A DNA stretch of 64,000 nucleotides from Flavicella sediminum (GTDB lineage: Bacteria > Bacteroidota > Bacteroidia > Flavobacteriales > Flavobacteriaceae), in contig NZ_VDET01000002.1 in assembly GCF_006381105.1 (NCBI RefSeq), positions 124,001 to 188,000 of the forward strand, read 5' to 3'. The notes beneath the pieces were generated by a model. It ran no database searches, was not told the origin of the DNA, and saw only the letters and a program-made list of their open reading frames with translations. The position numbers and the translations under genes are program-made. Below are positions 23,280-41,363 of this stretch, one piece after another (positions within the stretch are counted from its first letter, which is position 1; each line of letters begins with the position of its first letter).

Positions 23280-23336
23280 GCTTTTAGAGCATTTATACAC
23301 CCCTTGTATGAATTATTTAACAGAATAAACAAAACA

Positions 23337-23352: not shown

Positions 23353-23369
23353 CGACAAATAACGTTTTC

Positions 23370-23383: not shown

Positions 23384-23395
23384 AAACATATTCAT

Positions 23396-23424: not shown

Positions 23425-23460
23425 ATTGTATAAGTATCTTAAATACTAAAATTTACAATC

Positions 23461-25107
23461 ATGACTACAATTGATATTGCTGTAATTTTAATTTTCACAT
23501 TGCTCGTTTTTATTTGTGGAATGAGTTTTTCCAAATCTGGAAAAAATATGAAATCCTATTTTGCCGCAGGTGGTGCTTTGCCATGGTGGATGAGTGGGTT
23601 GTCACTTTTTATGAGTTTTTTCTCCGCAGGAACCTTTGTGGTTTGGGGCTCTATTGCCTATAAAAGTGGTTGGGTGGCCATTGCTATACAATGGACCATG
23701 TGTATTGCTGGTTTAATTATCGGTTTTTGGATTGCTCCTAAATGGCAAAAAACAAAAGCCTTAACTGCTGCTGAGTTTATTACCGATAGATTGGGCTATA
23801 AAACACAGAAAATTTATACTTATTTGTTTTTATTGATTTCCGTTTTTACCACCGGAGCTTTTTTATATCCTGTGGCTAAAATCGTTGAAGTTTCTACGGG
23901 CATCCCAATTACGGCAAGTGTTATTTTTTTAGGAATATTAATTTTAATTTACACAGCTGTTGGTGGTTTATGGGCCGTTATCGTAACCGACGTTTTACAA
24001 TTTGTGGTTCTTACCGCAGCCGTACTTATAGTCGTTCCTTTGTCTTTTGATAAAATTGGAGGCATCAATCAATTCATCAATCTAGCGCCAGATAATTTTT
24101 TCAACTTTGTAAATGAAGAATATACGCCAGGATTTTTAGTTGCTTTCGGACTTTATAATTTATTTTTTATTGCAGGAAACTGGGCCTACATTCAACGTTA
24201 CACTAGTGTTGCAAGCCCTAAAGACGCCAAAAAAGTAGGTTGGTTATTCGGTGGATTATATACGATCAGTCCGCTTATTTGGATGCTACCTCCTATGATT
24301 TACAGAGTATTAAACCCTGGACTTGGCGAGTTGGCTGAAGAAGGAGCCTATTTATTAATGTGTAAAGAAGTATTGCCTGTAGGAATGCTAGGTTTGATGC
24401 TAGGAGGAATGGTTTTTGCCACTTCAAGTTCGGTCAATACAACCTTAAATATTTCCGCAGGAGTTTTGGCTAACGATGTCTACAAACATTTCAAACCAAA
24501 CACCAGTGATAGCGACCTAGTAAAAGTTGGGAAACGATCTACCATTATTTTAGGAATTATTACCATAATTGTTGCTTTATTGGTTCCGTTAATGGGTGGA
24601 ATTGTTAACGTTGTTATGAGTTTAGCTGCCTTAACAGGTGGTGCCATGTTCCTACCTCCTCTTTGGGCGCTTTTTTCCAAATACCAAACCGGTAAAAGTG
24701 TTTTGTTGGTTACCCTTGTTTCTTTAGCCATCAACGGATTTTTCAAATTTATAAGTCCTGAGTTATTCGACTTTGCTTTGGATCGTGCTACGGAAATGGG
24801 TGTAGGAGTAGGAATACCCGTTGTGTTATTAGCCATTTTCGATTTTTATGCGAAATCAACAAAACAGAGTACCGAACAACATGAAAAACACCAAGGTATT
24901 GTTTCCACAAAAGTCTCTGCAACCAAAGAAGAAAGCGAAAGTGGTAATAAAAAAGGAAGTAGAGTCATTGGAATTGGCGTGGCAGCTACTGGGCTATTGG
25001 TACTCGGACTTTCATTTATTGCAGAAACAGGAGCGTTTCTTGTTGGAGGAATGGGAGTTGCCGTTTTAATATTAGGCTTATTCGTGATCAAAAAAAATCT
25101 TAATTAG
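23461..25107 (+). CDS. Sodium:solute symporter (SSS family)
   Basis: 548 residues, about 13 hydrophobic helices, and the SSS core (FCAG-like start MSFSKSGKNMKSYFAAGGALPWWMSGLSLFMS region, AVGGLWAVIVTDVLQF, and GNWAYIQRYTSV). The extended C-terminus (~470-548) adds a charged linker and two more helices. The family imports sugars or other organic solutes with Na+ across the inner membrane. As first gene of the cluster and the only importer seen, it probably carries a monosaccharide or anhydro-sugar released by the enzymes downstream; the substrate is inferred from context only. Confidence 0.9.
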   Translation: MTTIDIAVILIFTLLVFICGMSFSKSGKNMKSYFAAGGALPWWMSGLSLFMSFFSAGTFVVWGSIAYKSGWVAIAIQWTMCIAGLIIGFWIAPKWQKTKALTAAEFITDRLGYKTQKIYTYLFLLISVFTTGAFLYPVAKIVEVSTGIPITASVIFLGILILIYTAVGGLWAVIVTDVLQFVVLTAAVLIVVPLSFDKIGGINQFINLAPDNFFNFVNEEYTPGFLVAFGLYNLFFIAGNWAYIQRYTSVASPKDAKKVGWLFGGLYTISPLIWMLPPMIYRVLNPGLGELAEEGAYLLMCKEVLPVGMLGLMLGGMVFATSSSVNTTLNISAGVLANDVYKHFKPNTSDSDLVKVGKRSTIILGIITIIVALLVPLMGGIVNVVMSLAALTGGAMFLPPLWALFSKYQTGKSVLLVTLVSLAINGFFKFISPELFDFALDRATEMGVGVGIPVVLLAIFDFYAKSTKQSTEQHEKHQGIVSTKVSATKEESESGNKKGSRVIGIGVAATGLLVLGLSFIAETGAFLVGGMGVAVLILGLFVIKKNLN

Positions 25108-25127
25108 AAAATTACAATTAAAAAAAT

Positions 25128-27407
25128 ATGTTAGTACAAAATAACAGCGCGGCTATTAGACAAAACAAAACAACTAGCTTACAAAGTGAATTTGTAGTTA
25201 TTGGAGGTGGAACTGCCGGTGTTTGTGCCGCTATAACAGCAGCAAGAAAAGGTGTGAAAACGGTATTAATTCAAGACCGACCTGTATTAGGAGGAAATGC
25301 TTCTTCTGAAGTTCGCTTATGGATTTTAGGTGCTACTTCTCATATGGGAAACAACAACCGTTGGGCTCGTGAAGGAGGTGTCATGGATGAAATTCTTGTT
25401 GAAAATTTATACCGAAATAAAGAAGGAAATGCTGTTATTTTTGATACCGTATTACTAGAAAAGGTATTGAACGAAGAAAATATTACACTACTACTAAATA
25501 CCGCTGTGTACGATGTAAGTAAATCTGATGACAAGAATTTAGAATCTGTAAGAGCATTCAATCCACAAAACTCAACAGAATATATTATCAAAGCTCCTTT
25601 ATTTTGCGATGCTTCTGGTGATGGAATTGTAGCCTTTAAAGCTGGCGCTTCTTTTAGAATGGGAGCCGAAACACAGGAAGAATTTGGAGAAAAATTTGCT
25701 CCAGACAAAGCGTACGGAGAGCTATTAGGACACTCCATGTATTTTTATAGCAAAAACACGGACAAACCTGTAAAATATGTGGCTCCAGAATATGCTTTAA
25801 AAGACATTACTGCCATTCCACGTTACAAAGCTATTGGTAAGGACGATAAAGGTTGTCGTTTTTGGTGGTTTGAATATGGTGGTCGTGGCGATACAATTCA
25901 TGAAACAGAAGAAATTAAATACGAACTGTGGAAAGTAATCTATGGTGTTTGGGATTATATTAAAAATTCAGGAAATTTTGAAGATGTGGACAACATGACT
26001 TTGGAATGGGTGGGTACGGTTCCTGGTAAACGTGAAAGTAGACGTTTTGAAGGATTGTACATGATCAAACAACAAGATGTTATTGGTCAAAGTAAATTTG
26101 ACGACGCGATTGCACATGGAGGCTGGGCCATAGATTTACATCCTGCCGATGGTGTTTATAGTGAACTTTCAGGCTGTACCCAGTGGCATTCAAAAGGTGT
26201 TTACGACATTCCTTATAGATCTTTTGTTAGTAAAGATATAGACAACTTATTTTTAGCAGGAAGAATTATTAGTGCTACACATGTGGCTTTTGGTTCTACT
26301 CGTGTTATGGCCACTACCGGTTTATGCGCACAAGCATTAGGAATGGCCGCTTCTATTTGTATAGAAAACAAAATAAAACCTGCACAAATTCTAGAAAATG
26401 GATTGATTAAAAAATTGCAAAATGAACTGAATCTATTTGGTCAAAGTATTCCTAGAGTGCCTATTCAAAAAGAAAGCAATTTATTATCAAAAGCAACGAT
26501 AAAAAGTTCTTCTTCTTTAAAATTAACTAAAATAATTGGAGATGGAGAGTGGATGAATTTAGGAACGGCTACTGCTCAATTGTTGCCTTTAAAAGCGAAT
26601 CAGAAATACAAATTTAAGGTACTAGCCAATGTTTTGGAAGCTACGAATATTGAAATTCAATTACGTACTTCTATCAAAGCTGAAAATTACTGTCCAGAAT
26701 TAATTTTAGAAACTCAAATTTCTTCCTTAGAAAAAGGAGAACAAGAAATTGAATTCGAATTTGACACGACACTTACCGAGGATCAGTATGCGTTTGTTAC
26801 TTTTCTTTCAAACGACAAAATAGAACTTAAAAATAGCAACCAACGATTTACAGGAATACTTTCTGTATTTAATGGCGTTAACAAAGCGGTTTCTAATAAT
26901 GGAAAACAAACACCACCTGCAGCCATTGGTGTAGATACTTTTGAATTCTGGATTCCTCATAGACGACCTGAAGGAAAGAATATCGCCTTAGAAATTTCTC
27001 CTGCTATTGAAGTATTTGAAGAGAACAATATTAGAAATGGGTTTGTGCGTCCAGGAAAAACGAGCAATGCTTGGTCGGCTAGTTTAGAAGACAAAAATCC
27101 TAGTCTGACAATTACTTGGGACGAAGTTCAAGAAGTTTCGGAGATCAAGTTGTTCTTAGACACAGACTATGACCATCCTTTAGAATCTACCTTAATGGGA
27201 CATCCTGAAGAAGTAGCTCCTTTTTGTTTAAGAAACTATAAAATTACAGACCTAAACGGAAACCTGATTGTAGAAAAACAAGGCAATTACCAAACCATTA
27301 ACACTTGGAAATTAGAACAACCTATACAAACAAAAGGCTTTATTATAGAAATGGAACACCCGTTGGAAAATGTACCTGCTTCCATTTTTGAAATTGTATG
27401 TCAATAA
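25128..27407 (+). CDS. FAD-dependent oxidoreductase with C-terminal sandwich modules, no signal peptide
   Basis: 759 residues. The FAD-binding Rossmann motif GGGTAG lies at residues 26-31 (FVVIGGGTAGVCAA), with a second conserved block RPVLGGNASSEVRLW, as in FAD_oxidored (PF12831-type) proteins found in polysaccharide-utilisation clusters. From ~450 the chain becomes beta-rich, and its last ~130 residues look discoidin-like (AWSASLEDKNPSLTITWDE...). No signal peptide or lipobox is visible, so it is predicted cytoplasmic. It follows the symporter by 20 bases. The reaction is unknown; oxidation of an imported sugar or anhydro-sugar is a context-based guess. Confidence 0.85.
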   Translation: MLVQNNSAAIRQNKTTSLQSEFVVIGGGTAGVCAAITAARKGVKTVLIQDRPVLGGNASSEVRLWILGATSHMGNNNRWAREGGVMDEILVENLYRNKEGNAVIFDTVLLEKVLNEENITLLLNTAVYDVSKSDDKNLESVRAFNPQNSTEYIIKAPLFCDASGDGIVAFKAGASFRMGAETQEEFGEKFAPDKAYGELLGHSMYFYSKNTDKPVKYVAPEYALKDITAIPRYKAIGKDDKGCRFWWFEYGGRGDTIHETEEIKYELWKVIYGVWDYIKNSGNFEDVDNMTLEWVGTVPGKRESRRFEGLYMIKQQDVIGQSKFDDAIAHGGWAIDLHPADGVYSELSGCTQWHSKGVYDIPYRSFVSKDIDNLFLAGRIISATHVAFGSTRVMATTGLCAQALGMAASICIENKIKPAQILENGLIKKLQNELNLFGQSIPRVPIQKESNLLSKATIKSSSSLKLTKIIGDGEWMNLGTATAQLLPLKANQKYKFKVLANVLEATNIEIQLRTSIKAENYCPELILETQISSLEKGEQEIEFEFDTTLTEDQYAFVTFLSNDKIELKNSNQRFTGILSVFNGVNKAVSNNGKQTPPAAIGVDTFEFWIPHRRPEGKNIALEISPAIEVFEENNIRNGFVRPGKTSNAWSASLEDKNPSLTITWDEVQEVSEIKLFLDTDYDHPLESTLMGHPEEVAPFCLRNYKITDLNGNLIVEKQGNYQTINTWKLEQPIQTKGFIIEMEHPLENVPASIFEIVCQ

Positions 27408-27417
27408 TTTTAAATAC

Positions 27418-29697
27418 ATGAAAAAAATAACCCCTTTTATACTTTCTTTATTCCTTATAGGATGTAACGTGCATAAACAGGCTACGAAGAACACCAACAA
27501 TACGGATCTTAGTCTGAATGGAACTTGGAATTTCTTAGCCAATAATGACATCCAAGAAACGGAAGTTTTACATGCCAATTATTCAACTTGGGATCAAATG
27601 AGCGTTCCTGGAAATTGGGATTCGGAGAACAAATACTCCAATTATGTCGGCAAAGGCTATTATCAAAAAAACATTACGATTCCACAAGCATGGAAGGGCA
27701 AACAAGTACGCTTAAAATTTGATGCTGTTTATGAAACTTCAAAAGTATGGCTTAATGGAGAATTACTGGGCACACACAAAGGCGGCTATACTCCTTTTGA
27801 ATTCAATATCTCAAAAAATGCTAGTTATGGTGCTATAAATTCACTTGTCGTTTTGGCCGACAATAGCTTTAAGCGTGGTGCTTGGTGGGCATGGGGAGGA
27901 ATTAGTAGAGACATCCATATTTATACAAATGATGCAATCCGATTGGTTTGGCAACATATAGACGCTGTTCCAAACTTTTCAAAAGGAATAGTTCATTTTA
28001 AAATTGAGTATAAAATAGAAAACAATGGAGAAAAAGCAGAACACTTAAAAATTGTTTCCAATATTAAAACTGCCTCTGGAGATACCTGTGTTACAAAGCA
28101 ACAAATGCTGGAAGCACAAAATGGCATTACAAAAACAAGTGTTGAGTTTTCAGAAAAACTAGCTGATTTGGAATTATGGCATTTTGATCATCCTACTTTA
28201 TATCTTTTAACTTCAGAAATTTCAACCAAGTCAAAAATATTACAAATAGATAGCGCTAAATTCGGAATTCGAAAATTAGAAGTCAAAGGAGAAAAGTTAG
28301 TTCTAAACAATGAACCTATACGTGTTAATGGATTTAACCGTGTTCACGATCATAGATCCTTTGGAAATACAGAACCTGATGAACTCATTCAGCAAGACAT
28401 ACTTGATATCAAATCTTTAGGAGGTACTTTTTCTAGAATCATGCACGCCCCTGCTTCAGAAAACTTATTGGCCTTTTGCGATAGTATTGGTTATATGCTA
28501 ATTGAAGAAATTCCTGTTTGGGGAAGAGGTGCTCCTAATGCAAGGGCAAACAATCCTATTACTAAACAATGGCTAACGGAAATGATTGAAAGAGATTACA
28601 ATCATGCCAGTGTTGTTGGCTGGAGCGTAGGTAATGAAATTGGTAATTTAGATGGTGATTGGGCCGACATGACCATGACACCTGATCAGTACAACTATGT
28701 AAATTCTATGTTTGACCATGTGATCGCTTTAGATCCGAATAGATTAAAAACGTATGCTAGTTTTACGGCTTATTTACCAAAATCTGACAACACCAATGAA
28801 CCTGTAGCTAAGGCAGATTTTATTTCAATAAACACCTATGGGAAAGCCTATGACAAAGCTGTAAAAACACATAAAAAATTTCCGAACAAGCCTATTTTCT
28901 TTTCTGAAATTGGAAAGGGACAAATTGGAGAAACGAACACTTCGCAACTGGCCAAATCCTTAGTTGACGATTTAGCCGAAATTCAAGAATTACCTTATGT
29001 TATGGGTTCGGCTTTATGGACGTATAACGACTATAGAAGTAATTACAAAGCCACACCTGCTTCAGGAAACAGAGCATGGGGTGTGGTAGATGTATGGAGA
29101 AATAAAAAACCCGTCGCTTATAATCAAATTCAAGATATTTATGCCCCTATCAAAAATATCTCTTTCACTTTAAGTGACAGATGGATAAATGTAATGGTTA
29201 CCCCTAAATCAATTAAAGAATTACCTAGCTACATTTTAAAAAACTACCACCTGACTTGTCGCTTTTTTGATGAAAACGATAAAGAAATAGCTTCTCAAAA
29301 ATCTAAACTACCTACAATACATCCTGGAGACGAATTGTTTTTTATCTCCTTCAAAAATATTTACAAAGCGGCTTATTTTAAAATTTCATTGCAATCGCCT
29401 CTAGGAATAGAAATGAAAACAATTTTCAATCATTCCAAAAAATCGTTAAAAAAAGACCAAAATCTATCAGATAGAATTATTCATTTGGAAAAGAGAACGA
29501 ACGAAATTATACTCGGTTACAATGTATCAGAAGAAGAAACTTCATTCACCATTAAATATGGAGAAAACATTCCTTCAAAAACTATTGAAACCAAGCTTAA
29601 AGGATCCATTAAAATTCCTTGGCAATCTAACAAACCGTTCACTATTCAAATGAAATCTAACAAAAGTGACTGGTCTAAAATAAAAAGCATCAACTAA
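27418..29697 (+). CDS. GH2-family glycoside hydrolase lipoprotein
   Basis: 759 residues from the ATG at 27418, chosen because it gives a lipoprotein signal with lipobox LIGC (C16); the in-frame ATG at 27370 does not. N-terminal sugar-binding domain (~30-170, LNGTWNFL, VPGNWD, WWAWGGISRDIH), immunoglobulin-like domain (~175-285) and TIM barrel (~290-590). Acid/base E407 in GWSVGNEIG and nucleophile E497 in IFFSEIG are both present. GH2 enzymes are mostly exo-beta-galactosidases, glucuronidases or mannosidases; a beta-galactosidase acting on galactan oligosaccharides fits the GH117 and GH16 neighbours. Anchored in a cell membrane facing the periplasm or surface. Confidence 0.9.
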   Translation: MKKITPFILSLFLIGCNVHKQATKNTNNTDLSLNGTWNFLANNDIQETEVLHANYSTWDQMSVPGNWDSENKYSNYVGKGYYQKNITIPQAWKGKQVRLKFDAVYETSKVWLNGELLGTHKGGYTPFEFNISKNASYGAINSLVVLADNSFKRGAWWAWGGISRDIHIYTNDAIRLVWQHIDAVPNFSKGIVHFKIEYKIENNGEKAEHLKIVSNIKTASGDTCVTKQQMLEAQNGITKTSVEFSEKLADLELWHFDHPTLYLLTSEISTKSKILQIDSAKFGIRKLEVKGEKLVLNNEPIRVNGFNRVHDHRSFGNTEPDELIQQDILDIKSLGGTFSRIMHAPASENLLAFCDSIGYMLIEEIPVWGRGAPNARANNPITKQWLTEMIERDYNHASVVGWSVGNEIGNLDGDWADMTMTPDQYNYVNSMFDHVIALDPNRLKTYASFTAYLPKSDNTNEPVAKADFISINTYGKAYDKAVKTHKKFPNKPIFFSEIGKGQIGETNTSQLAKSLVDDLAEIQELPYVMGSALWTYNDYRSNYKATPASGNRAWGVVDVWRNKKPVAYNQIQDIYAPIKNISFTLSDRWINVMVTPKSIKELPSYILKNYHLTCRFFDENDKEIASQKSKLPTIHPGDELFFISFKNIYKAAYFKISLQSPLGIEMKTIFNHSKKSLKKDQNLSDRIIHLEKRTNEIILGYNVSEEETSFTIKYGENIPSKTIETKLKGSIKIPWQSNKPFTIQMKSNKSDWSKIKSIN

Positions 29698-29714
29698 AGT
29701 TTTAAATTCCGATT

Positions 29715-32700
29715 ATGAAAAACCTATATACGCTACTCTTCCTACTTGTCCTATTTTCTTGTACATTGCAAAAAAAACATGAGTCGACTTATGAACCAAC
29801 CACTAGTAGTTTAAATGGTGAATGGAAATTTAACACCATTTACGGTCAAGGTTCAAACCCCTTAAATATTCAGGAACTAGCTTCTGATATTGTGATTGAT
29901 AACGATGATCAAAACAAGGTTGAAATAAAAGGAAATTGGAATACTAAAAAAATTGGAGGAAGAGGCTCTGTTTTTTATGGACAAAACTACTTAAGTCATC
30001 ATTTTTCTAAAAATGAATCAGCAGATAATTATGTGCGTTTCAAACCTTCAATAGCTAAAACTGGATATTATGAAGCATTTGTTAAATATCCATTTGCTTC
30101 ACATTTAACCGCTCAAATTAACATCAACAGTTCAGAAGGAAAAACATCAAAATATGTAAGTCAAAGAACTGATTGCGGACAATGGATTAGTTTAGGGATC
30201 TATAAATTCAATGCTTTAGAAAACAATTATGTAGAAGTTACTGCCATTACAGAAGGTGAAGTGGCTGCAGATGCCATACTTTTCAGACCTATTTCTAAAG
30301 AAAAATATGTAGAAGCAAAAGAACAACCAAATCAGATTTATTTACCCGAATTCAACGATTCAGATTGGCATCATTTAAAAGTTCCTGGTCACTGGGGAAT
30401 GATCAATTCTTATTCTAATTACAATGGTTTGGCTTGGTATCGAAAAGAATTTGAATTGCCAAAAACATGGAAACCGAATGCGAATGAAAAAATTAGATTA
30501 AAATTTGATGGGGTTTATCATGTTGCTAAAGTATATTTAAATGGCCTATTTATAGGAAAACACCGAGGTGGATTTACTCCTTTTGAATTTGAAGTAAAAG
30601 ACATTTTAAATTTTAAAGAAAAAAATACGATTGCTGTTGAAGTCGACAATAGAAATAAAGTTGGTGCCACATGGAATTGGGGAGGAATTATTCGAGGTGT
30701 TCATTTAATTAAAAATAACGTTGTCCGAATTAATAACCAATACATGCATGCTGAGCCTAATTTAACAAAAGGAACGGCAAGTTTAAAATTGAAAGTAAGG
30801 TTGGAGAACAATTCTTCAGAATCCAAAAATATTACTATCCATTCTATAATTTCTAAAGACGGAAAATTAGTAGAGCTAAACAAAACCGTTTCCGTTGCTG
30901 CGCAAACAACAATGGATGCAGAGCTAACAGGAAGTTTAAAAGCTAGCGATGTAAAATTATGGCATTTTGATCATCCTGAATTGTACAATTTAGAAACAAC
31001 AATTTCAGAGCAAAACAAGTCCATAGATTTGAAAACCGATCATTTTGGAATACGCAAAATTGAGGTTACAGCTTCTAAATTGTTATTAAATGGTGAGCCT
31101 GTTCGTTTAGGTGGATTTAACCGTGTAAGTGAGCATCGATTTTGGGGTTCTTCAGAACCTTTAGAAGTTTTAGAAAAAGACATGGATTTGATGAAAGAAG
31201 CAGGCGCAAACTTTATGCGAATTATGCATGGTACCCAAAACGAAAAACTCATTGATTTGTGTGATAAAAAAGGAATTCTAATTTTTGAAGAAGCCAATGT
31301 TCGTGATTTAAGCAACCCTGAATTTACACCTCCCCACTACCCTTTAGCAAAAGAATGGATTAAGGGAATGGTGGAACGTGATTGGAATCACCCAAGTATT
31401 ATTGGTTGGAGTGTTGGAAATGAATTAAGCAATCATTATGATTATGCAAAGTTAACGATGGATTATGTTCGTGAAATGGACCCAAATAGATTGGTTACTT
31501 GTGTTAGTAATAGCGGACAAAAAAGTTTTTCCAATCGTAAAACTGATCCGAATACGGAAGTAGATATTATTATGCACAATATGTATCGTTGGCAAGGAGA
31601 ACCTCAAGTTATTATTGATAAATTGAGGAGCGAATGGCCAGAAAAACCCATCTTTATTTCAGAATATGGTTTTGACCCGTATCCAACAACTTCCTTAGAC
31701 GGAGATCAACAGATATTTTCTGACTGGAACCAACATTGGAGAGGCAAAAATGAATTTGTTATTGGAGGTTCGCTTTGGACATTCAATGATTATAGAAGTG
31801 GTTATGCAGCAACTTCACAAGAAGAAAATAGAGTTTGGGGACTGGTTAGCGTTTGGAGACAAAAAAGAAGAATGTTTGACAGAGTTGCCAAAGAATTTAG
31901 CCCTATCAAAGATATTAAAGTCGAAAACTTAACCATTTCTAATAACAAAGCAAACGTGATCATTCCTATTAGAGGATTAGCAGATTACCCAAGCTACAGT
32001 TTAAAAGGCTATCAATTAGTCTGGTCTTTTAGAGCTCCTGAGGGAAAAATAGTTTCAAAAAACTCGAAAAACCTGCCTTTACTTTCACCAACTGACAAAA
32101 CATGGAGTGGTGAAATTACTTGGAGTAAATTACCTGAAAACTTATTGGATTTACGTATCCAACTTATGAGTCCGACAGGCTATGCACGTTATGAAAAAAC
32201 AATCTCCTTAAAAACACCTAATGCTCCAATAATTAAGGCCGTTGATTTAGGCGACAAATCTGCACGTGTGTTGTTTGAAAAAGTTCCTGGAGCTAAAGAG
32301 TATTTTGTGCGCTATACAAATGATGACGGAACGATAACAGAATCATTTAAAACAATTACAAATGCCATTGAAATTGAAAACTTAAGCAATCATAAAGCCT
32401 ACACTTTTAGTGTCATTTCTATAAATGAGAAAGGAGAATGTCTAGCACCTAATTCAATAGAAGCAACACCAAACGGAAAACTACTAGCACCTAAAATTTG
32501 GGAAGCATTTATAACAGATAATAAAGCTGTGATTGGTTATACAAGTGAATTTGAAGACACGTTTTACAATGTAAAATATGGTGCTTCAAAAGAAAATTTA
32601 AATAACGAATTTAGATCTAATGTTAGAGGTATGATGACCATTGATTTAGAGAATGAAAGTGAAATTTATTTCCAAATTCAACGAGAAACTAAAGGTCAAA

Positions 32701-32735
32701 AAGGGAGTTGGTCGCAAATAATTAAAGCAAATTAG
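29715..32735 (+). CDS. GH2-family glycoside hydrolase lipoprotein with nested carbohydrate-binding-like and C-terminal FN3 modules
   Basis: 1006 residues; lipobox FSC with C16. The GH2 N-terminal domain starts at ~30 (SLNGEWKFN) but is interrupted at ~55-200 by a golvesin/CBM-like sandwich (YVRFKPSIAKTGYYEAFVKY...ADAILFRPIS). It resumes at FNDSDWHHLKVPGHWG. TIM barrel ~455-750 with acid/base E570 (GWSVGNELS) and nucleophile E650 (IFISEYGFDP). A fibronectin type III domain follows near 840-930. Probably a beta-galactosidase-like exo-enzyme of the galactan pathway. It begins 17 bases after the first GH2 gene. Confidence 0.88.
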   Translation: MKNLYTLLFLLVLFSCTLQKKHESTYEPTTSSLNGEWKFNTIYGQGSNPLNIQELASDIVIDNDDQNKVEIKGNWNTKKIGGRGSVFYGQNYLSHHFSKNESADNYVRFKPSIAKTGYYEAFVKYPFASHLTAQININSSEGKTSKYVSQRTDCGQWISLGIYKFNALENNYVEVTAITEGEVAADAILFRPISKEKYVEAKEQPNQIYLPEFNDSDWHHLKVPGHWGMINSYSNYNGLAWYRKEFELPKTWKPNANEKIRLKFDGVYHVAKVYLNGLFIGKHRGGFTPFEFEVKDILNFKEKNTIAVEVDNRNKVGATWNWGGIIRGVHLIKNNVVRINNQYMHAEPNLTKGTASLKLKVRLENNSSESKNITIHSIISKDGKLVELNKTVSVAAQTTMDAELTGSLKASDVKLWHFDHPELYNLETTISEQNKSIDLKTDHFGIRKIEVTASKLLLNGEPVRLGGFNRVSEHRFWGSSEPLEVLEKDMDLMKEAGANFMRIMHGTQNEKLIDLCDKKGILIFEEANVRDLSNPEFTPPHYPLAKEWIKGMVERDWNHPSIIGWSVGNELSNHYDYAKLTMDYVREMDPNRLVTCVSNSGQKSFSNRKTDPNTEVDIIMHNMYRWQGEPQVIIDKLRSEWPEKPIFISEYGFDPYPTTSLDGDQQIFSDWNQHWRGKNEFVIGGSLWTFNDYRSGYAATSQEENRVWGLVSVWRQKRRMFDRVAKEFSPIKDIKVENLTISNNKANVIIPIRGLADYPSYSLKGYQLVWSFRAPEGKIVSKNSKNLPLLSPTDKTWSGEITWSKLPENLLDLRIQLMSPTGYARYEKTISLKTPNAPIIKAVDLGDKSARVLFEKVPGAKEYFVRYTNDDGTITESFKTITNAIEIENLSNHKAYTFSVISINEKGECLAPNSIEATPNGKLLAPKIWEAFITDNKAVIGYTSEFEDTFYNVKYGASKENLNNEFRSNVRGMMTIDLENESEIYFQIQRETKGQKGSWSQIIKAN

Positions 32736-32737
32736 TA

Positions 32738-33506
32738 TGAAATTAACACGAATAGACATCATTGGCAAAATGGAGAAACAGAAAATAGTCAATTGGGCTA
32801 TACAGAAGGACTTTCGCCAGGATATGCCCATACTTATGAAAAGGCTATAAAAACCAAGCGAATTCGTTTTTCATCTAAGAATTCAAACCACTTTCATATC
32901 AAAAAATTTCGTATTTACGAAGAAAACATAGAATGTGAATTTCCTAGAAATATATTATCTAACAACGCAGACAATATTGTAACAGGTTTAAATAACCTTT
33001 CAAAGGACAGTCAAGTTACAATTACTGCTAGTGGTCTTTATAACGATACCTTTAAAATTTCTGATGTTGCTAATGGTAGTATTACAACAGGGTGGGTTTC
33101 TCAGAAAGAAGGTGAAAAATGGTTGGAGTTTGAATGACCTTCAGGAAAAAAGTTGGACATATTCAGTTCATAAATAGGTAAAAAAAAATAATTGGAATGG
33201 ACTTGTTTCGGATTATAAAATTGAGGCAGAAGTTCATGGAGAATGGGTTGAAATTGCAAGTTACGATGCGAAAATCAGTAATAACTTTGCCGAAGAATAC
33301 CATACTTATGGAATGGATTGGAATGAAAAAGAATTGATTTTTTATTTTGATGGAAAAGAGATTAGAAGAGAGAAAATACATTTTGTTATAGCGAAGCACC
33401 TATTTGGTTAAGTCTAGCAATTAAAAAATGGTCAGGTACAGTTTCTGATGGAATTGATGGTACTTCATTGAAGGTGGATTATGTAAGATATCATAACAAA
33501 AAATAA
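32738..33506 (+). pseudogene. GH16-discoidin gene fragment (5' half lost, frameshifted)
   Basis: Starting 3 bases after the GH2 stop, the sequence aligns with the protein at 37677-39005 from its NTNRHHWQNGE segment to the final DYVKYY. The whole 5' half with the signal peptide and catalytic EIDxxE is missing. There is a TGG-to-TGA stop at 33135 (WPS in the intact gene), a frameshift in an A-run near 33180, and another near 33370. It is therefore a dead fragment. It fuses exactly behind a complete GH2 gene, which marks a recombination junction. Confidence 0.9.
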
Positions 33507-33542
33507 TAAAATTAAAAAAACATAGTAATCAAACAACACAAA

Positions 33543-34670
33543 ATGAAACATCTAGCATTAGTTTTAATTACAGTTACTCTTTTAAGTTCTTGTAAAGTAC
33601 AACCAAAAAAAACTGTTGAAATAAAAAAATCAGATTATAAAATTGAATTAGGAGAAGTTAGGCTTCAGTCTAAATTTGAAAGTGATACAATGAGTGTTTG
33701 GGGAGGTTCCATTACAAAAGGAGATGATGGTTTGTATCATATGTTTTATTCTCGATGGAAAAAAGATTTAGGTTGGGCTTGGGCTACACATTCTGAAATA
33801 GCACACGCTGTTGCTGAAAGTCCTTTTGGACCATTTAAGTTTAAAGATATTGCTTTGGGAATTCGAGATTCAAAATTGTGGGATGGTTTATGTACACACA
33901 ATCCTACAGTTCACAAATATGGCAATAAATATTACTTGTATTATATGGGAAATACAGGTGACGGAAAAGTATTTGGAGAACCTGGAGAAATAAAACTAAA
34001 CCCTATTCATAGAAATAATGCGAGAATAGGTGTAGCAGTTGCCGAGAACCCAAACGGACCTTGGAAACGTTTTGATAAACCATTAATTGATGTGAGTAAG
34101 GATAGCACAGCTATTGACGCGTTATTAGTGAATAATCCATCAATTACCAAAAGACCAGATGGAGGATATTTAATGGTGTATAAGGCAGTAGGTAAAAAGA
34201 AAAAAGGAATATGGGGAGGTCCGGTAGTGCATTGTGTAGCAACATCTGATAATCCTACAGGACCATTTGTAAAATTCGACAAACCAATTTTTCTAGCTAA
34301 AGGACACGATTTCCCTGCTGAAGATCCTTTTATTTGGTATGAAGCTGGAAAATATAGAGCAATTTTAAAAGATATGCATGGAGCATTTACAGATGCAGGT
34401 ATGGCGTTGGTTTTATTTGAATCTGAAGATGGATTTGATTGGACATTATCTAAAAATGCATTGGTTTCAAAATTAGAAATTAAATGGGAAGATGGAACGG
34501 TTCAAAAAGTAGCTAATTTAGAACGCCCCCAAGTTTATTTAGAAAATGGAATTCCAAAAGTTCTTGTATGTGCTTCTGATGTAAAAGATAGTAAAGGTGT
34601 GCTTCAATCTTTTAATGTTCAAATTCCAATTCAAACTATAAAAATTAATAATGAAGAATCTAAAAAATAG
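33543..34670 (+). CDS. Five-bladed-propeller glycoside hydrolase-like lipoprotein (GH43/GH117-like), copy 1
   Basis: 375 residues with lipobox LSSC (C17). Repeated propeller-blade motifs are visible: SVWGGSITKGDDGLYHMFYSRW, THNPTVHKYGNKYYLYYMGN, NPSITKRPDGGYLMVYK, AEDPFIWYEAGKYRAILKD. These fit the GH43/GH68/GH117/GH130-type five-bladed propellers, and EDPFIW resembles a catalytic-blade motif, but I cannot name the family or catalytic residues with confidence. A close paralogue ends the cluster (40281-41363). Probably an exo-acting enzyme on galactan oligosaccharides, by context. Confidence 0.82.
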   Translation: MKHLALVLITVTLLSSCKVQPKKTVEIKKSDYKIELGEVRLQSKFESDTMSVWGGSITKGDDGLYHMFYSRWKKDLGWAWATHSEIAHAVAESPFGPFKFKDIALGIRDSKLWDGLCTHNPTVHKYGNKYYLYYMGNTGDGKVFGEPGEIKLNPIHRNNARIGVAVAENPNGPWKRFDKPLIDVSKDSTAIDALLVNNPSITKRPDGGYLMVYKAVGKKKKGIWGGPVVHCVATSDNPTGPFVKFDKPIFLAKGHDFPAEDPFIWYEAGKYRAILKDMHGAFTDAGMALVLFESEDGFDWTLSKNALVSKLEIKWEDGTVQKVANLERPQVYLENGIPKVLVCASDVKDSKGVLQSFNVQIPIQTIKINNEESKK

Positions 34671-34917
34671 TTTTATATCCGTTTTTTCCTTTTCCGTAAC
34701 CTTTATAGGTTTAGCACAATCAAATTTTGATTTTAAAGAGTTACTCCCTGAAAAGTTTGACAAAGCAAATATTATTCAGGAAAAAGATTACAATGTTTGG
34801 GGTACCAATATTTTAAAAGGAAAAGACGGAATTCCTAAAGCATTGATCATTGCCATTTTACCTAAGGATAGTGAAGTCTCTTTTTCTTTGGTAATTCCTT
34901 TAAAATATAAACATTGA
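34651..34917 (+). pseudogene. Remnant of a third propeller-hydrolase gene
   Basis: An 88-codon frame starting inside the last codons of the previous gene. It has a signal peptide (residues 1-22, ending LAQ) and then NVWGTNILKGKDG, which corresponds to the first-blade motif VWGGSITKGDDG of the propeller lipoproteins. After that the similarity ends in a short hydrophobic tail. I read it as a 5' fragment of a truncated propeller gene; a small expressed exported peptide cannot be excluded. Confidence 0.55.
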
Positions 34918-34921
34918 TTTT

Positions 34922-36382
34922 ATGAAATTAGAACTCAAAAACCACCTATTCAAAAGTGTTTGTTTGTTGTTTACTTTGATTAGCTATCAGTTACAAGCGC
35001 AACAAAAGACCTACAATATTGTTTGGATAAATGCTGATGATTTAGGAAGAGAATTATCTTGCTACGGACATCCTGCAGTGCAGACACCAAATATTGATGG
35101 TTTGGCAAAACAAGGAGTTTTGTATACCAATGCTTATGCCAATGCCCCTGTTTGCTCTGCAAGTAGATCGTCTCAAATTACAGGAATGTATCCAATAGCT
35201 ATAAATTCGTTAGATCACAGAACCTTAAATATGACCGCTTTGCCTGATGGCATACAACCTATTACTGAGTTTTTTAAAAAAGCCGGTTATTTTGTAACCA
35301 ATGGAAATGGATTGAATTTATTAAAAAGTGGAGGTAAAAAAGATTACAATTTTATTCCAAGTATTAAATACGATGGAACAGATTGGAATCAAAGAAAGCA
35401 AGGGCAACCTTTTTTTGCTCAGGTTCAGATAAAGTATCCACATAGATTGTTTGTAAAAGATAAAAAAAATCCAATCAATCCAAAAGATGTAGTGTTGCCT
35501 AAATGCTATCCAGACCATCCGTTACTAAGAGCAGATTGGGCTCTGTATTTAGAATCTATTCAACATTGTGATGCTATTGTAGGTGAAATTTTAAAAAAAT
35601 TAGAAGCAGATGGATTGGCAGAGAATACGATTGTATTCTTTTTTGGAGACCACGGTCGTCCACATCTTAGAGATAAACAATTTTTATACGAAGGAGGATT
35701 GCAGATTCCTTTAATTGTAAGATGGCCAAGTCAATTAAAACCCAATAAAAAAGACAAACGTTTGGTCAGTTTGGTAGATGTAGCAGCTACTAGTTTGGCT
35801 ATATCAGGTATTAAAACTCCGTATAAATTACACGGTAAAGTGTTCTTAGGAAAAAACACAAAAAAACGTACATATATCTATGGATTTAGACAACGTACAG
35901 GAGATGCCGTAGAAAATATGAGAAGTATTACCGATGGTCGTTACAAATTAATTTGGAATAGAACGTATGACAGACCCTGGATGCAGTTAACGAGTTATAA
36001 AAAATTACAATATCCTGCTTTTGCCTTGTATCATTATTTATATAGTAAAGGAGCATTAAAAGCTCCGTACAATCAGTTTATGGCGGCAACAAAGCCAGAG
36101 TTTGAATTGTTCGATTTGAAAAAAGATCCTATGGAATTTAAAAATTTGGCAGGAAAAAAAGCTTGTAAAAAAGTTCAAGAAAGATTATTTCAAACTCTAT
36201 CATCCAACTTAAAATCCTATGAAAAAAATATGATTTTTGAAGATGAGGCAACCATTGCCAAAGCCAAACAGGGTTCTAAAATTTATTATAAAAAAGCATT
36301 GGAACAACAAAAACCAGAAGTTTCTGTAGAAGCTTCTTATGAAGAAATAGTAAAAGATTGGGAAGAAAGACTTTTACAGTAA
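34922..36382 (+). CDS. S1-family sulfatase (formylglycine type)
   Basis: 486 residues with a signal peptide (1-27, ending LQAQ). Metal-binding DD at 39-40 (INADDLGRELSCYG), the sulfatase signature CSASR beginning at C78, and FFGDHGRPHLRDK for the second half of the active site. CxAxR rather than CxPxR is a variant that anaerobic-type maturases (anSME) can convert to formylglycine; no maturase gene is in the window. It should remove sulfate esters, which makes a sulfated galactan such as porphyran or sulfated agar the likely target. Exported to the periplasm or surface. Confidence 0.9.
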   Translation: MKLELKNHLFKSVCLLFTLISYQLQAQQKTYNIVWINADDLGRELSCYGHPAVQTPNIDGLAKQGVLYTNAYANAPVCSASRSSQITGMYPIAINSLDHRTLNMTALPDGIQPITEFFKKAGYFVTNGNGLNLLKSGGKKDYNFIPSIKYDGTDWNQRKQGQPFFAQVQIKYPHRLFVKDKKNPINPKDVVLPKCYPDHPLLRADWALYLESIQHCDAIVGEILKKLEADGLAENTIVFFFGDHGRPHLRDKQFLYEGGLQIPLIVRWPSQLKPNKKDKRLVSLVDVAATSLAISGIKTPYKLHGKVFLGKNTKKRTYIYGFRQRTGDAVENMRSITDGRYKLIWNRTYDRPWMQLTSYKKLQYPAFALYHYLYSKGALKAPYNQFMAATKPEFELFDLKKDPMEFKNLAGKKACKKVQERLFQTLSSNLKSYEKNMIFEDEATIAKAKQGSKIYYKKALEQQKPEVSVEASYEEIVKDWEERLLQ

Positions 36383-36433
36383 ATCAATTAATTTTTGAAT
36401 GATCATAAATAAACAACATAAAATATAACAAAG

Positions 36434-37672
36434 ATGAAGTATATAGTACTATGCATAGGAATTGTTCTTTTTGGAGTTAAAGCAAAAGCTCAAGAAAAAA
36501 GCACATTTGATTATTCCCAGTGGGAATTAAAATGGGAAGATAATTTTGATTATAAAAACAGTCAATTAGATGATCATTGGATTTCTGCCAATTACACTAG
36601 TAAAAATTTATACTGTAGCCGATGGCGAGAAAACGTAGATGTAGTAGATGGCGTAATGCATTTAAACATTAAAAAAGAAAAAAGAGGGGGGAAAGATTGG
36701 ACAGCAGGTAGTATCTGGACACGCAAACAGTTTAAATATGGATATTTTGAATGTCGCTACAAATATGCTGGAGGAGAAGCTACCAATAATTCCTTTTGGT
36801 TAATGACAAGAGGAGGAGAACCTACAGAAGGTAAAAAATTTGAAATTGATATTAACGAAGGACATTATCCTAATGAGGTGAGTACTAATATCCATAATTG
36901 GTCAGATTTTACCGTTTTGCCAAATGGAAAGAAAACACACCCAAGTTATAATGAAATGTTCTTTTTTGGAACCAAACCAAATTATTCTATTCAATTAGAA
37001 ATTCCTGTTGAAACGAAGAAAATACGTTTTACCTCTAAAAATAGTTCTAGGTTTAATGTGGGCGAATTTAGAGTGTATGGAGTAAACGAGTCTGGAGAAT
37101 ATCCAACGGTATTGTCACAAACAGCAGATAGTGATATTGATGGTTTGGTAAACTATGCAAGAGCTCAAAATGTAAGCATTACATCAAGCGGTTCGTATAA
37201 AGGAAATTCTTCAGAAAATAAATTGATAGATGGAAACCCTTTTACTTCTTGGAGCACACAGCAAGAGGGAGATAAATGGGTAGAGTTCACTTGGGATCAA
37301 TCTATAACTGTTGGTTGTATTCAGTTTACAAACGGATGGAGAGATCAAAGTAAAACATGGCACAGCTTAGTAAGCAATTACAAAATTCAATATTTAAAAG
37401 ATGGAGAATGGAGAGATATTTCTGTTTTAGATGCCAGTAAAGAGAATGATTTTTCGGAGGAATATCATACCTACGGATTGGAGTGGGATGAAAATGAATT
37501 GGTGTTTTATTTTGATGGTAAAGAATTAAGAAGAACTAAAAATGATTTTTGTTATAGTGAAGCTCCAATCTTTTTAAGCTTAGCTCTTATTAAATGGCAC
37601 GGAGTATTAAAAGATGATTTGGATGGTAAAAGTATGAAGGTTGATTATGTGAAATATTATCAGAAAAAATAA
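36434..37672 (+). CDS. GH16 endo-galactanase-like enzyme with internal discoidin-like insertion, copy A
   Basis: 412 residues with signal peptide (1-20, ending KAQ). The GH16 jelly-roll first half spans ~30-165 (WEDNFDY, GYFECRYKYAGG, NSFWLM) with catalytic signature EIDINE at 137-142: nucleophile E137, D139, acid/base E142. The GH16 fold resumes at ~342 (YHTYGLEWDENELVFYFDGK) and closes with VDYVKYY. The intervening ~180-338 is discoidin (F5/8C)-like, but strands normally last in that domain (TKKIRFTSKNSSRFNVGEFRVYG) come first and the normal beginning (NVSITSSGSYKG, LIDGNPFTSWST) comes after. Likely an agarase- or porphyranase-type enzyme. Confidence 0.88.
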   Translation: MKYIVLCIGIVLFGVKAKAQEKSTFDYSQWELKWEDNFDYKNSQLDDHWISANYTSKNLYCSRWRENVDVVDGVMHLNIKKEKRGGKDWTAGSIWTRKQFKYGYFECRYKYAGGEATNNSFWLMTRGGEPTEGKKFEIDINEGHYPNEVSTNIHNWSDFTVLPNGKKTHPSYNEMFFFGTKPNYSIQLEIPVETKKIRFTSKNSSRFNVGEFRVYGVNESGEYPTVLSQTADSDIDGLVNYARAQNVSITSSGSYKGNSSENKLIDGNPFTSWSTQQEGDKWVEFTWDQSITVGCIQFTNGWRDQSKTWHSLVSNYKIQYLKDGEWRDISVLDASKENDFSEEYHTYGLEWDENELVFYFDGKELRRTKNDFCYSEAPIFLSLALIKWHGVLKDDLDGKSMKVDYVKYYQKK

Positions 37673-37676
37673 AAAA

Positions 37677-39005
37677 ATGAAATTACCCATAACCATTACG
37701 ACTATTTTAGCACTAAGTTTTAGCTTAGAAAGCTGCGCGCAATCTACTAACAACAACGAGATTATAGTAAAAGAGCCAGAGAACAAAAATGAAGAAAAAA
37801 TCATTTGTCCTGAAGATATCTATCATACTCTTTTACCCATTCCATCTGTTGAATTTGATATTTCTAAATGGGAATTAGCTTGGGAAGATGAATTTGATTA
37901 TCCTAACTCTCAGCTTGAAAACAATTGGACTTCTCAAAATGGGCCTAGTGGTCATATCCTTTGTAGCCGATGGAGAGATAATGCAGTAGTAGCCAATGGC
38001 GTTTTGGAATTACAAGCAATAAAAGAACAGCGTGGTGGAGCAGATTGGACTTGTGGCAATATTTGGACAAAAGAAACCTTTAACTATGGTTATTTTGAAT
38101 CAAAATACAAATATGCTGGTGCTAGTGGAACCAACAACTCCTTTTGGTTGTTTTCGAATTTAAAAGGTGTGGGTAATAGTACACCTGGTGTTACTTGTGA
38201 ATTGGATATTAATGAAGGACATTTTCCTAATGAGATGAACACAAACCGTCATCATTGGCAAAATGGAGAAACGGAGAACAGTCAATTAGGATACACAGAA
38301 GGCTTATCTCCAGGATATGCGCATAGTTTTGAAAAAGCTATAAGCACAAAAAAAATTCGTTTCTCTTCTAACAATGCCAATCATTTTCATATCAAAGAAT
38401 TTCGCATCTACGAAGAAAAAGCAGACTGTGATTATCCTAAAAACATACTTTCCAATACGGCTGACAACTCAAATGCTAACTTAAACAACCTTTCAAAAGA
38501 CAGTCAAGTTACCATCACAGCTAGTGGTACTTATAATGATACTTTTAAAGTTTCTGATGTTACCAATGGAAGCATTACAACTGGTTGGGTATCACCAAAA
38601 ACAGGAGAAAAATGGCTAGAATTTTCTTGGCCTTCTGAAAAAAACATAGGACATATACAATTTATCAATGGTTGGCAAAGTGGAAGTAATTGGAATGCCT
38701 TAATATCAGACTATAAAATAGAAGCTTATATAAACAATGTATGGGTTGAAATAAGTAGTTACGATGTAAAAACAAGTTACAATTATGCCAACCATTACCA
38801 TATTTATGGAATGGACTGGTCGGAAACTGAAATCAAATTTTATTTTGATACTAAATTGATTCGTACAATTCCGAATACACTTTGCAATGAAGCATTAAAT
38901 ATTTATTTAAGCTTGGCTATATTAGAACACGCTGGTGAAGTTACAGACGCAATAGATGGTACTAGCATGAAAATAGACTATGTGAAATATTATACTAAAA
39001 AATAA
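37677..39005 (+). CDS. GH16 endo-galactanase-like lipoprotein with internal discoidin-like insertion, copy B
   Basis: 442 residues; probable lipobox ending C20 (SLESC), then a ~35-residue linker. GH16 first half ~58-185 (WEDEFDYPNSQL, GYFESKYKYAG) with ELDINE at 175-180: E175, D177, E180. The discoidin-like insert spans ~216-372, again with KKIRFSSNNANHFHIKEFRIY before SQVTITASGTYND and NGSITTGWVS. GH16 resumes at YHIYGMDWSETEIKFYF. It starts 4 bases after copy A. The pseudogene at 32738 derives from this type. Likely cleaves beta-1,4 galactose linkages in an agar- or porphyran-like polymer; exact specificity is not readable. Confidence 0.88.
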   Translation: MKLPITITTILALSFSLESCAQSTNNNEIIVKEPENKNEEKIICPEDIYHTLLPIPSVEFDISKWELAWEDEFDYPNSQLENNWTSQNGPSGHILCSRWRDNAVVANGVLELQAIKEQRGGADWTCGNIWTKETFNYGYFESKYKYAGASGTNNSFWLFSNLKGVGNSTPGVTCELDINEGHFPNEMNTNRHHWQNGETENSQLGYTEGLSPGYAHSFEKAISTKKIRFSSNNANHFHIKEFRIYEEKADCDYPKNILSNTADNSNANLNNLSKDSQVTITASGTYNDTFKVSDVTNGSITTGWVSPKTGEKWLEFSWPSEKNIGHIQFINGWQSGSNWNALISDYKIEAYINNVWVEISSYDVKTSYNYANHYHIYGMDWSETEIKFYFDTKLIRTIPNTLCNEALNIYLSLAILEHAGEVTDAIDGTSMKIDYVKYYTKK

Positions 39006-39008
39006 ACC

Positions 39009-40265
39009 ATGAAAACAACAATTCTCAACATTATAAAAACATCTTTTCTTTTCTTATTGATAAGCGCCTGTAGTTCAAAGGAAAAAACAAATACTACGGG
39101 ATTTCCTTACAATATCAAGGAAGATACGAAAAACAGAGCATTAAGCAGTGCCATAGAACGTGCCTTTACTCAGTACGATGGTTACACACCTGCCACTAAT
39201 GAATTGTACTCTAACTTTTTATATACACCTTTAAAAGGCTTGGACTATAACGATGGTGACGGTACCATTTCTAGAAGAGATCCTTCAAAAATCATTAAGG
39301 AAAACGGAAAATATTATGTTTGGTACACACATCGTCAAACACCAACGCCACCTGTTGGAGCTAGAAATGCAGACAAGAGTAACGATACCATCCCTTCTAC
39401 AGATTGGGATTTATGCGATATTTGGTACGCCACAAGTAAAGACGGTTTTACTTGGGAGGAACAAGGAGTTGCCGTTCCTAGACCTCCAAAACCACAAGTA
39501 GGTTGGCGATCTGTAGCCACAACTGATATTTTAAAATGGGAAGGAAAATATTATTTATACTTTCAAGGATTTTTAGAAGCGAGCGGAAAGAAAGGTGATT
39601 ATTGTCCGGTAGCCGTAGCTTCTTCGGATTCTCCTGATGGTCCTTGGACCTATCATGAAGGTGCAGTTATAGAAAACGGTGCCAAAGGCGAATGGGATCA
39701 ATTTGCCATTCACGATCCAAATCCATTTATTCACAACGGCAAAATTTATATCTACTACAAAGCAGCCTTTAACAGACCCGATAATTTATGGATTGCTGCT
39801 GGTTTGGCGATAGCAGATTCTCCTTTAGGACCTTTTAAAAAGCATCCTTTAAATCCACTCTTTAATTCCGGACATGAAACTTCATTATTTCCATTTAAAG
39901 AAGGAATTGCTGCCTTAATCGTTCAAGATGGTGTAGAATCCAATACCATTCAATATGCCAAAGACTGGGTGAATTTTGAAATTGCTTCTGTATCGAAATT
40001 TATGCCTGTTGCTTCAGGTCCTTATATTGCAGATGCTTTTTTAGACAACAAAAATGGAAGAGGAATTACATGGGGATTGTCTCATTTTGTCAATGCAGGA
40101 GCACATGGAAAACAACATTCAATACTAGCCCGATTTGATTGTGATTTGAGTTTGGATGTACACGATCCTCAAATGAAGAAAAAAATTAGATGGAACAAAC
40201 CTGACTTTTATTTTCAACATAAACTGAATAAAAAACAACTAGATAGAATTAAAAACAGCAACTAA
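39009..40265 (+). CDS. GH117 3,6-anhydro-L-galactosidase-like lipoprotein
   Basis: 418 residues with lipobox ISAC (C21). The five-bladed propeller shows the GH117 hallmarks: GDGTISRRDPSK with base D91, QFAIHDPNPF with D236, and SGHETSLFP with H289/E290, the histidine being the unusual general acid described for this family. GH117 enzymes release 3,6-anhydro-L-galactose from the non-reducing end of neoagaro-oligosaccharides. This is the best single clue to the cluster's substrate. It starts 3 bases after GH16 copy B. Confidence 0.92.
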   Translation: MKTTILNIIKTSFLFLLISACSSKEKTNTTGFPYNIKEDTKNRALSSAIERAFTQYDGYTPATNELYSNFLYTPLKGLDYNDGDGTISRRDPSKIIKENGKYYVWYTHRQTPTPPVGARNADKSNDTIPSTDWDLCDIWYATSKDGFTWEEQGVAVPRPPKPQVGWRSVATTDILKWEGKYYLYFQGFLEASGKKGDYCPVAVASSDSPDGPWTYHEGAVIENGAKGEWDQFAIHDPNPFIHNGKIYIYYKAAFNRPDNLWIAAGLAIADSPLGPFKKHPLNPLFNSGHETSLFPFKEGIAALIVQDGVESNTIQYAKDWVNFEIASVSKFMPVASGPYIADAFLDNKNGRGITWGLSHFVNAGAHGKQHSILARFDCDLSLDVHDPQMKKKIRWNKPDFYFQHKLNKKQLDRIKNSN

Positions 40266-40280
40266 AACAATCAATTTAAT

Positions 40281-41363
40281 ATGAAAACAAAACCATATGC
40301 GCTGCTTGCGCTAGTACTTGTCTTATTTACGGCATGTAGTACAACAACAACTAAAAAAGAATACAAATTAACCCTAGGAGAAGTCGCCTTAACATCAAAA
40401 TTTCAAAATGATTCCATTACTATTTGGGGAGGATCTTTAGTAAAAGGGGATGATAATTTATACCATCTCTATTATTCAAGGTGGAAAAAAGATTTAGGTT
40501 GGGCTTGGGTGACCCATTCCGAAATAGCACATGCAGTATCCACTAGTCCGTTTGGACCTTTTACTTTTAAAGACGTTGCCTTAGGAATTAGAGATGCCGC
40601 TTTATGGGATGGACTCTGTACACACAATCCTACCGTGCATAAATATGGCGACAAATATTATTTGTACTATATGGGAAACACGGGTGATGGCGTCGTAACT
40701 GGAAGTCCAGGAAACATCAAATTAAACGTTTTGCACAGAAACAATCAAAGAATAGGTGTTGCCGTTGCCGACAACCCAAATGGCCCTTGGAAACGCAGTG
40801 ACAAACCTCTAATTGATGTAAGCGAGGATGTGAATTCCTTAGATGCATTAATGACAAGCAATCCTTCAATAACAGAACGTCCAGAAGGAGGGTATTTAAT
40901 GGTGTACAAAGCGGTTGGTAAAAAGAAAAAAGGAAAATTTGGCGGACCTGTAGTCCATTGTGTAGCCACTTCTGACAGTCCGACTGGGCCTTTTAAAAAA
41001 TACGATTTCCCTATTTTCACTGCAAAAGGACACGATTTCCCAGCTGAAGATCCATTTATTTGGTATGAAGACGGAATGTATAGAGCTATACTAAAAGACA
41101 TGCATGGCGCCTTTACAAAAGCCGGACAAGCTTTAGTTTTATTCGAATCTAAAGATGGTTTTGATTGGAGTTTAGCCAAAAATGCATTGGTTTCAACTTT
41201 AGAAATAAACTGGGAAGATGGGAACACACAAAAAGTAGCACATTTAGAAAGACCCCAACTTTATATTGAAAATGGGAAACCCGTTGCTTTGCTATGTGCC
41301 TCTGACATAAAAGATGCCCATGGCGTTTTACAATCCTTCAATGTACAAATTCCGATAAAATAG
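40281..41363 (+). CDS. Five-bladed-propeller glycoside hydrolase-like lipoprotein, copy 2
   Basis: 360 residues with lipobox FTAC (C15). It aligns throughout with the protein at 33543-34670 (SRWKKDLGWAWVTHSEIAHAV, LWDGLCTHNPTVHKYGDKYYL, GHDFPAEDPFIWYED), ending in VLQSFNVQIPIK. Last gene of the operon, 15 bases after GH117 and before a strong terminator. The fold is that of GH43/GH117-like propellers; activity is unassigned. Retention of two intact copies plus a remnant suggests a useful, perhaps diversifying, exo-activity. Confidence 0.83.
   Translation: MKTKPYALLALVLVLFTACSTTTTKKEYKLTLGEVALTSKFQNDSITIWGGSLVKGDDNLYHLYYSRWKKDLGWAWVTHSEIAHAVSTSPFGPFTFKDVALGIRDAALWDGLCTHNPTVHKYGDKYYLYYMGNTGDGVVTGSPGNIKLNVLHRNNQRIGVAVADNPNGPWKRSDKPLIDVSEDVNSLDALMTSNPSITERPEGGYLMVYKAVGKKKKGKFGGPVVHCVATSDSPTGPFKKYDFPIFTAKGHDFPAEDPFIWYEDGMYRAILKDMHGAFTKAGQALVLFESKDGFDWSLAKNALVSTLEINWEDGNTQKVAHLERPQLYIENGKPVALLCASDIKDAHGVLQSFNVQIPIK

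Follow-up and report, generated by a model that had tools for sequence, protein, structure and literature searches.

Two adjacent, intact genes of Flavicella sediminum (copies A and B) encode family 16 glycoside hydrolases (GH16) with a second domain built into the catalytic fold, and this insert is an F5/8C domain (discoidin, CBM32-like) with a circularly permuted strand order, in which the last two strands lead. Both genes lie in the 64,000-nucleotide stretch of contig NZ_VDET01000002.1 that was analysed here (the window), at the place where an initial annotation, made from the sequence alone, had located them (Table 1). The explanation that we favour as a whole, at a probability of roughly 0.85, is that these are exported GH16 enzymes that would cleave galactan and that carry a permuted discoidin, which would have been inserted once and would grip the substrate.

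In both copies the match to the F5/8C family (PF00754) interrupts the match to the GH16 family (PF00722), so the claim that a discoidin lies inside GH16 in both genes holds. The GH16 match scores 59 bits in copy A (P0001), where it is split into two stretches, and 53.4 bits in copy B (P0002), against a cut-off of 22; the nested F5/8C match scores 32.1 bits in copy A (residues 248-333) and, at residues 280-369 of copy B, 20.1 bits, which is under the cut-off of 28.2. In both copies, and in the relic of a third copy, the insertion site is the loop ahead of the YH(T/I)YG strand. The distance from EIDINE to YHTYG had been given as 157 residues, but in copy A the two motifs are 201 residues apart (193 for ELDINE and YHIYG in copy B), and the number 157 is right as the length of the insert. 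Since an insert-free paralogue (L038:669-1451) has 44 residues in the same interval, the excess comes to 157 residues in A and 149 in B. The segments themselves lie as described: in copy A KKIRFTSKNSS..GEFRVYG falls within residues 183-216, ahead of NVSITSSGSYKG..YKIQYLKDGEW within residues 240-334.

Table 1. Coordinates of the features discussed (positions in the window, or in the named locus where a locus prefix is given).
Feature	Position	Strand	Evidence or remark
Galactan-type locus	22066-41363
Relic of a B-type third copy, its two insert pieces ordered as in copies A and B	32737..33503	+	starts at TNRHHW
Sulfatase	34922..36382	+	9bb9 (S1_8A sulfatase by name) as best solved relative, E 1.6e-95
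GH16 copy A (P0001, 412 aa), permuted discoidin nested inside	36434..37672	+	ORF, Pfam
Copy A, GH16 first half, residues 28-177 (approximate ends), EIDINE at 137-142	36515..36964	+
Copy A, front piece of insert (residues 183-216), equivalent to the last two strands of canonical F5/8C	36980..37081	+
Copy A, linker (about residues 217-239) bridging the former C- and N-termini of the discoidin	37082..37150	+
Copy A, rear piece of insert (about residues 240-334), equivalent to the first part of canonical F5/8C	37151..37435	+	PF00754 positions 1-83; 4a42 superposition
Copy A, GH16 second half, residues 339-412, starting at DFSEEYHTYGLEW	37448..37669	+
GH16 copy B (P0002, 442 aa), architecture as copy A	37677..39005	+
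Copy B, insert front piece, residues 213-245	38313..38411	+
Copy B, rear piece of insert (about residues 271-369)	38487..38783	+	PF00754 at 280-369
Relative of 3,6-anhydro-alpha-L-galactosidases	39009..40265	+	4u6d (unnamed function), E 4e-183; 3p2n (named enzyme), E 1.5e-61
Insert-free GH16 paralogue, genome G248, adjoining an inserted copy	L038:669-1451 (also L103:9130-9912)	- (L038)
GH35 of BT0290 type with permuted C-terminal F5/8C	L109:208-2598	-
GH35 of BT0290 type with permuted C-terminal F5/8C	L110:205-2598	-

The permutation was examined with a local F5/8C profile of 143 positions, built from 24 canonical domains of related genomes, on 19 inserted sequences that include both window copies (18 distinct ones, since L015 and L034 are identical). 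In all 19 the front piece, taken alone, aligns to the last part of the profile (start at 105-109, end at 141-142) with 4.6-14.9 bits (positions 105-141 and 12.0 bits in copy A, 107-142 and 14.9 bits in copy B, the weakest score being that of L040, 4.6 bits), and the rear piece in native order matches positions of about 5 to 104. Placing the front piece behind the rear piece gains 13.6-21.1 bits over the rear piece alone in every one of the 19 sequences, confirming that the front is the canonical end and the rear the canonical start. Chance can be excluded, since in each of the 19 sequences none of 100 shuffled front pieces attained the re-ordered score, with borders between front and rear that had been picked after inspection of the alignment. 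Less favourably, a rotation scan run blind, with the loop residues on either side left in place, attained the profile end at its best rotation in 14 of the 19 sequences and missed it in L014, L015, L034, L035 and L040.

Re-ordering has the same effect with other profiles, turning a partial F5/8C match into a nearly complete one, as a check suggested with the annotation had anticipated. With PF00754, copy A rises from 35.2 to 45.4 bits and its coverage from positions 1-82 to 1-114 of 127, while copy B rises from 21.5 to 32.1 bits (2-85 to 2-114) and thereby passes from under to over the cut-off. All 11 native inserts and all 8 re-ordered inserts match PF00754 at E <=0.01, and the first row, at 35.9 bits against the cut-off of 28.2, falls within the F5/8C family. 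In a profile search of the PDB the native insert profile matched the canonical CBM32 structure 4a42 over residues 25-87 (E 0.0017), with the leading piece aligned, swapped, to residues 117-148 at 0.8 bits, which is not significant alone; the re-ordered profile matched residues 25-148 of 149 (E 9.1e-6). In the insert the strands do not follow in one canonical run; the tail stands first, and the insert is therefore classed as a permuted variant and not as a regular F5/8C member. As for the new ends, the original ends of the domain are indeed joined, as had been proposed, via a linker of about 23 residues, but the cut does not fall between the last and the first strand; it lies ahead of the last two canonical strands, at about position 105 of 143 in the local profile. 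In the insert the chain runs through the last two strands of the discoidin, crosses the linker that bridges the old ends, and finishes with the first strands.

Structure prediction points the same way. An insert model (164 aa, alignment of 11 rows, folded by itself) came out as one compact domain (pLDDT 83.6, pTM 0.83), in agreement with the proposal of a single module of one-domain length, and the predicted model has the discoidin sandwich fold. Foldseek returned no match under E 0.001 for this model; the best was 6eon (7.6e-3), and among the 50 matches listed we recognised one canonical CBM32, 2jd9, at rank 44 (E 0.26). With VIA-align the model in native order superposes on 6eon with Z 10.9, rmsd 3.1 and 124 aligned residues over model positions 1-149, the 6eon range of 215-778 marking just its two outermost aligned residues, of which the lower is within the GH35 catalytic part. 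On 4a42 (CpGH89 CBM32-6) the superposition takes in 85 residues, with rmsd 1.6 A and Z 7.2, and is confined to model positions 61-156; unlike the insert, this domain has canonical strand order and free termini. The superposition on F5/8C domains that had been advised as a check comes out in favour of the proposal, a canonical domain being fitted by the rear piece alone and the permuted 6eon over both pieces.

The structure 6eon is that of BT0290, a GH35 enzyme whose entry is titled galactanase and whose molecule is named beta-galactosidase. In it, as in two GH35 proteins of related loci (L109, which aligns with 6eon over residues 26-796, and L110), the C-terminal domain consists of a front, tail-type piece followed by a rear, head-type piece; in 6eon the stretch ..FFCLEALNAH..AIAELELLG.. 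precedes ..WKVIYADSEE..WHTNY..IVIDLGE..GFSYLPR..KDYKVYL. Re-ordering raises the PF00754 score of the L109 domain from 47.5 to 53.4 bits (coverage 7-72 to 7-127) and the local profile scores from 47.4 to 72.8 bits (L109) and from 45.1 to 60.4 bits (L110). As in the GH16 insert, the last two discoidin strands come first and the chain ends after the KDYxxYxx strand, so that the new ends are the same, but in GH35 the domain is C-terminal, outside the catalytic fold, and belongs to a different discoidin subgroup. The existence of a solved permuted discoidin therefore supports the permutation reading and at the same time removes any claim to its uniqueness. GH35 exceeded its cut-off in none of the 40 genomes of the relatives set (own genome included) and in 3 of 99 class genomes. 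The GH35-type profile gave nearly end-to-end matches in 6 of 247 class genomes (ORFs of 791-823 aa), two of which are sources of the profile and the other four of which are putative GH35 cases counted by profile match; among the matches listed, 10 others cover the head part only.

The permuted arrangement also occurs in the pseudogene, as had been noted: the relic, which is without the 5' half of the gene and contains frameshifts and stops, is 72% identical to copy B in DNA (801 aligned columns) and keeps the two pieces in identical order. The same split GH16 could also be found elsewhere by sequence search, 7 of 24 related loci matching over the whole length (two Wenyingzhuangia, two Algibacter, Lutibacter, Seonamhaeicola and an uncultured member of the Flavobacteriaceae); in the other 17 the BLASTP pieces are confined to the GH16 core, except for low-identity ends that slightly enter the insert (L027). 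The inserted GH16 family, from marine bacteria, is small and rare in the Flavobacteriaceae, being present in 6 of 397 sampled genomes, own included. Among 395 class genomes the insert profile matched two, the own genome and G550, the latter only over positions 60-162 of 164.

The catalytic part of these proteins is an intact GH16 core. Prediction of the whole chain gave a model of no more than fair quality (pLDDT 66.2), but its GH16 jelly roll superposes on 3b01 (Z 20.6, rmsd 3.0, 205 aligned, model 29-412), 5ocr (Z 19.5) and 3juu (Z 19.4), and Foldseek places GH16 glycosidases among the best 50 of 1555 matches. These three structures, of GH16 kappa-carrageenases, porphyranases and laminarinases, share the catalytic jelly roll with the modelled chain at 19-27% sequence identity over the aligned part, and with chains of 250-278 residues they have no room for an inserted discoidin. 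The GH16 catalytic motif is E-x-D-x-x-E, and the family acts by a retaining mechanism. E137, D139, E142 and H154 are kept in all 19 sequences; the protein should be an active enzyme, and its core would cleave by the retaining mechanism with E137 and E142. Leader sequences, judged by eye, suggest that both copies are exported endo-glycosidases.

Several alternative explanations for the insert and its history need to be considered. Loops at the insertion position vary in GH16, so one could imagine that the segment merely consists of lengthened ordinary loops; this is already contradicted, and we give it practically no weight, as the F5/8C match of copy A exceeds the cut-off, the insert-free paralogue shows how short the interval can be, and the insert folds alone. 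Another view would see in the insert only leftovers of two discoidins, a tail from the first and a head from the second, unrelated to each other and forming no single domain, as the result of a tandem repeat that decayed in a loop. A slice through a tandem array would indeed yield the order tail, linker, head, and the same genome encodes a tandem F5/8C protein (an 825-aa ORF), but the two pieces are complementary (rear about 5-104, front 105-142, of 143 positions), are predicted to fold together, occur in that order in 6eon, and are both present in all 18 distinct sequences, which makes leftovers very improbable. Thus the segment has turned out to be neither an ordinary GH16 loop nor two partial folds, the outcomes that the annotation had named as fatal to its proposal, in view of the PF00754 matches, the single-domain fold and the fit to 6eon. 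If the insert is a permuted discoidin, one may still ask whether a single permuted ancestor, instead of two events, stands behind the GH16 and GH35 domains. The cut point is identical, and the p-AU value against joining the two groups is 0.038, only a mild rejection from a comparison of two trees; yet in the best tree the GH35 rows group with the canonical domains L047, L048, L050, L051, L059, L060 and L066 (95/94) and the GH16 insert rows with seven other canonical domains (90/84). The two permutations therefore look independent as far as the domain tree goes, and we regard a common permuted ancestor as unlikely. The 11 GH16 inserts included in the domain tree fall into a single clade (99/96), so one insertion event can explain them; in our proposal a flavobacterial ancestor would have acquired the permuted domain once, ahead of the YHTYG strand. 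The insert-free paralogue, which has 62% identity to copy A on one side of the insert and 70% on the other, may represent either the ancestral state or a loss; the tree of the GH16 core does not discriminate between the two, and a tree that groups all 19 inserted rows to its exclusion was not rejected (p-AU 0.19). For the permutation itself we infer a likely origin by one of two routes, a register-shifted slice of a tandem discoidin array (the end of one repeat plus the start of the next) or duplication followed by trimming; the linker of the 825-aa tandem protein, read by eye as a possible source of the insert, has no clear resemblance to it.

What the insert does is a closer question. Tethered twice next to the catalytic sheet, the discoidin could serve as a built-in wall that grips the substrate beside the cleft, and we rate this at about an even bet. 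Its main rival accepts a real permuted discoidin but sees in it a structural or oligomerisation module, a view that we consider plausible though somewhat less probable. In its favour, the insert-free paralogue persists and the insert evolves faster than the core: copies A and B have 37% amino-acid identity in the insert and 53% in the core, and the NG86 dN/dS of the insert for P0001 against L009, L010 and L011 is 0.076, 0.207 and 0.057, compared with 0.028 to 0.061 for the core (the near-identical pair L011/L012 gives 1.02 for the insert, from very few changes). On the other side, 18 of 19 sequences retain W302 and W309, and among solved canonical domains the best relative is a CBM32, both of which are only suggestive of sugar binding. 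The one exception, a divergent copy (L042:1471-2748), has Cys at both positions, which suggests that these two residues touch or stack.

Circularly permuted proteins are a known phenomenon, and the fold in question is widely used for sugar and membrane binding; here permutation and domain nesting are combined in a natural case, an unusual construction for a two-domain enzyme. Fusions of GH16 with discoidins are also known: in Paenibacillus LamA (PMC2789033) both domains stand on one chain, with the discoidin separate and C-terminal, in contrast to the nested and permuted domain of copies A and B. With a permuted discoidin already solved in GH35, what would be new is a permuted discoidin nested in the GH16 catalytic fold; none of the literature matches listed describes a GH16 enzyme with a nested or permuted discoidin. 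We tentatively suggest, at somewhat less than even odds, that evolution has opened a second pair of usable ends in the discoidin fold on at least two separate occasions (at the GH35 C-terminus and in the GH16 loop), and that in GH16 the permutation permits double tethering with the binding face toward the cleft, giving one composite active site. Such a second natural cut point could be used for engineering discoidin/CBM32 domains into enzyme loops, and an inserted copy adjoining an insert-free paralogue is a ready pair for probing the role of the insert. Profile and structure searches that keep residue order under-report permuted domains.

Finally, the genomic neighbourhood gives some indication of the substrate. 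Besides the sulfatase and the anhydrogalactosidase relative, the locus encodes two GH2 proteins with beta-galactosidase-like matches under curated cut-offs, a sodium/solute symporter and a large FAD oxidoreductase, and because of these neighbours we infer a red-algal galactan, on which copies A and B probably act. No SusC/SusD pair was found among the ten locus genes scanned; a 384-aa protein of the locus combines a CarboxypepD_reg domain with a weak match to the start of SusC. In 11 of 13 stretches read (of which L015 and L104, 226,539 bases each, are probably one contig) the GH16 gene is accompanied by one or more further neighbours resembling a gene of the window locus, the shared types being GH2, GH43-like, anhydrogalactosidase-like, sulfatase, symporter and FAD oxidoreductase. 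The two stretches without such a neighbour in the bases read are L011 and L108, the latter, with 14 kb read, holding the copy at L041:559-2748 (minus strand). That copy is a 730-aa GH16 protein with a type IX secretion tail (PF18962), ahead of which a repeated stretch can be seen by eye. In the window the relic stands directly after a GH2 gene; in the equivalent position L013 carries a B-type and an A-type copy, both intact, and L107 a copy of type A.
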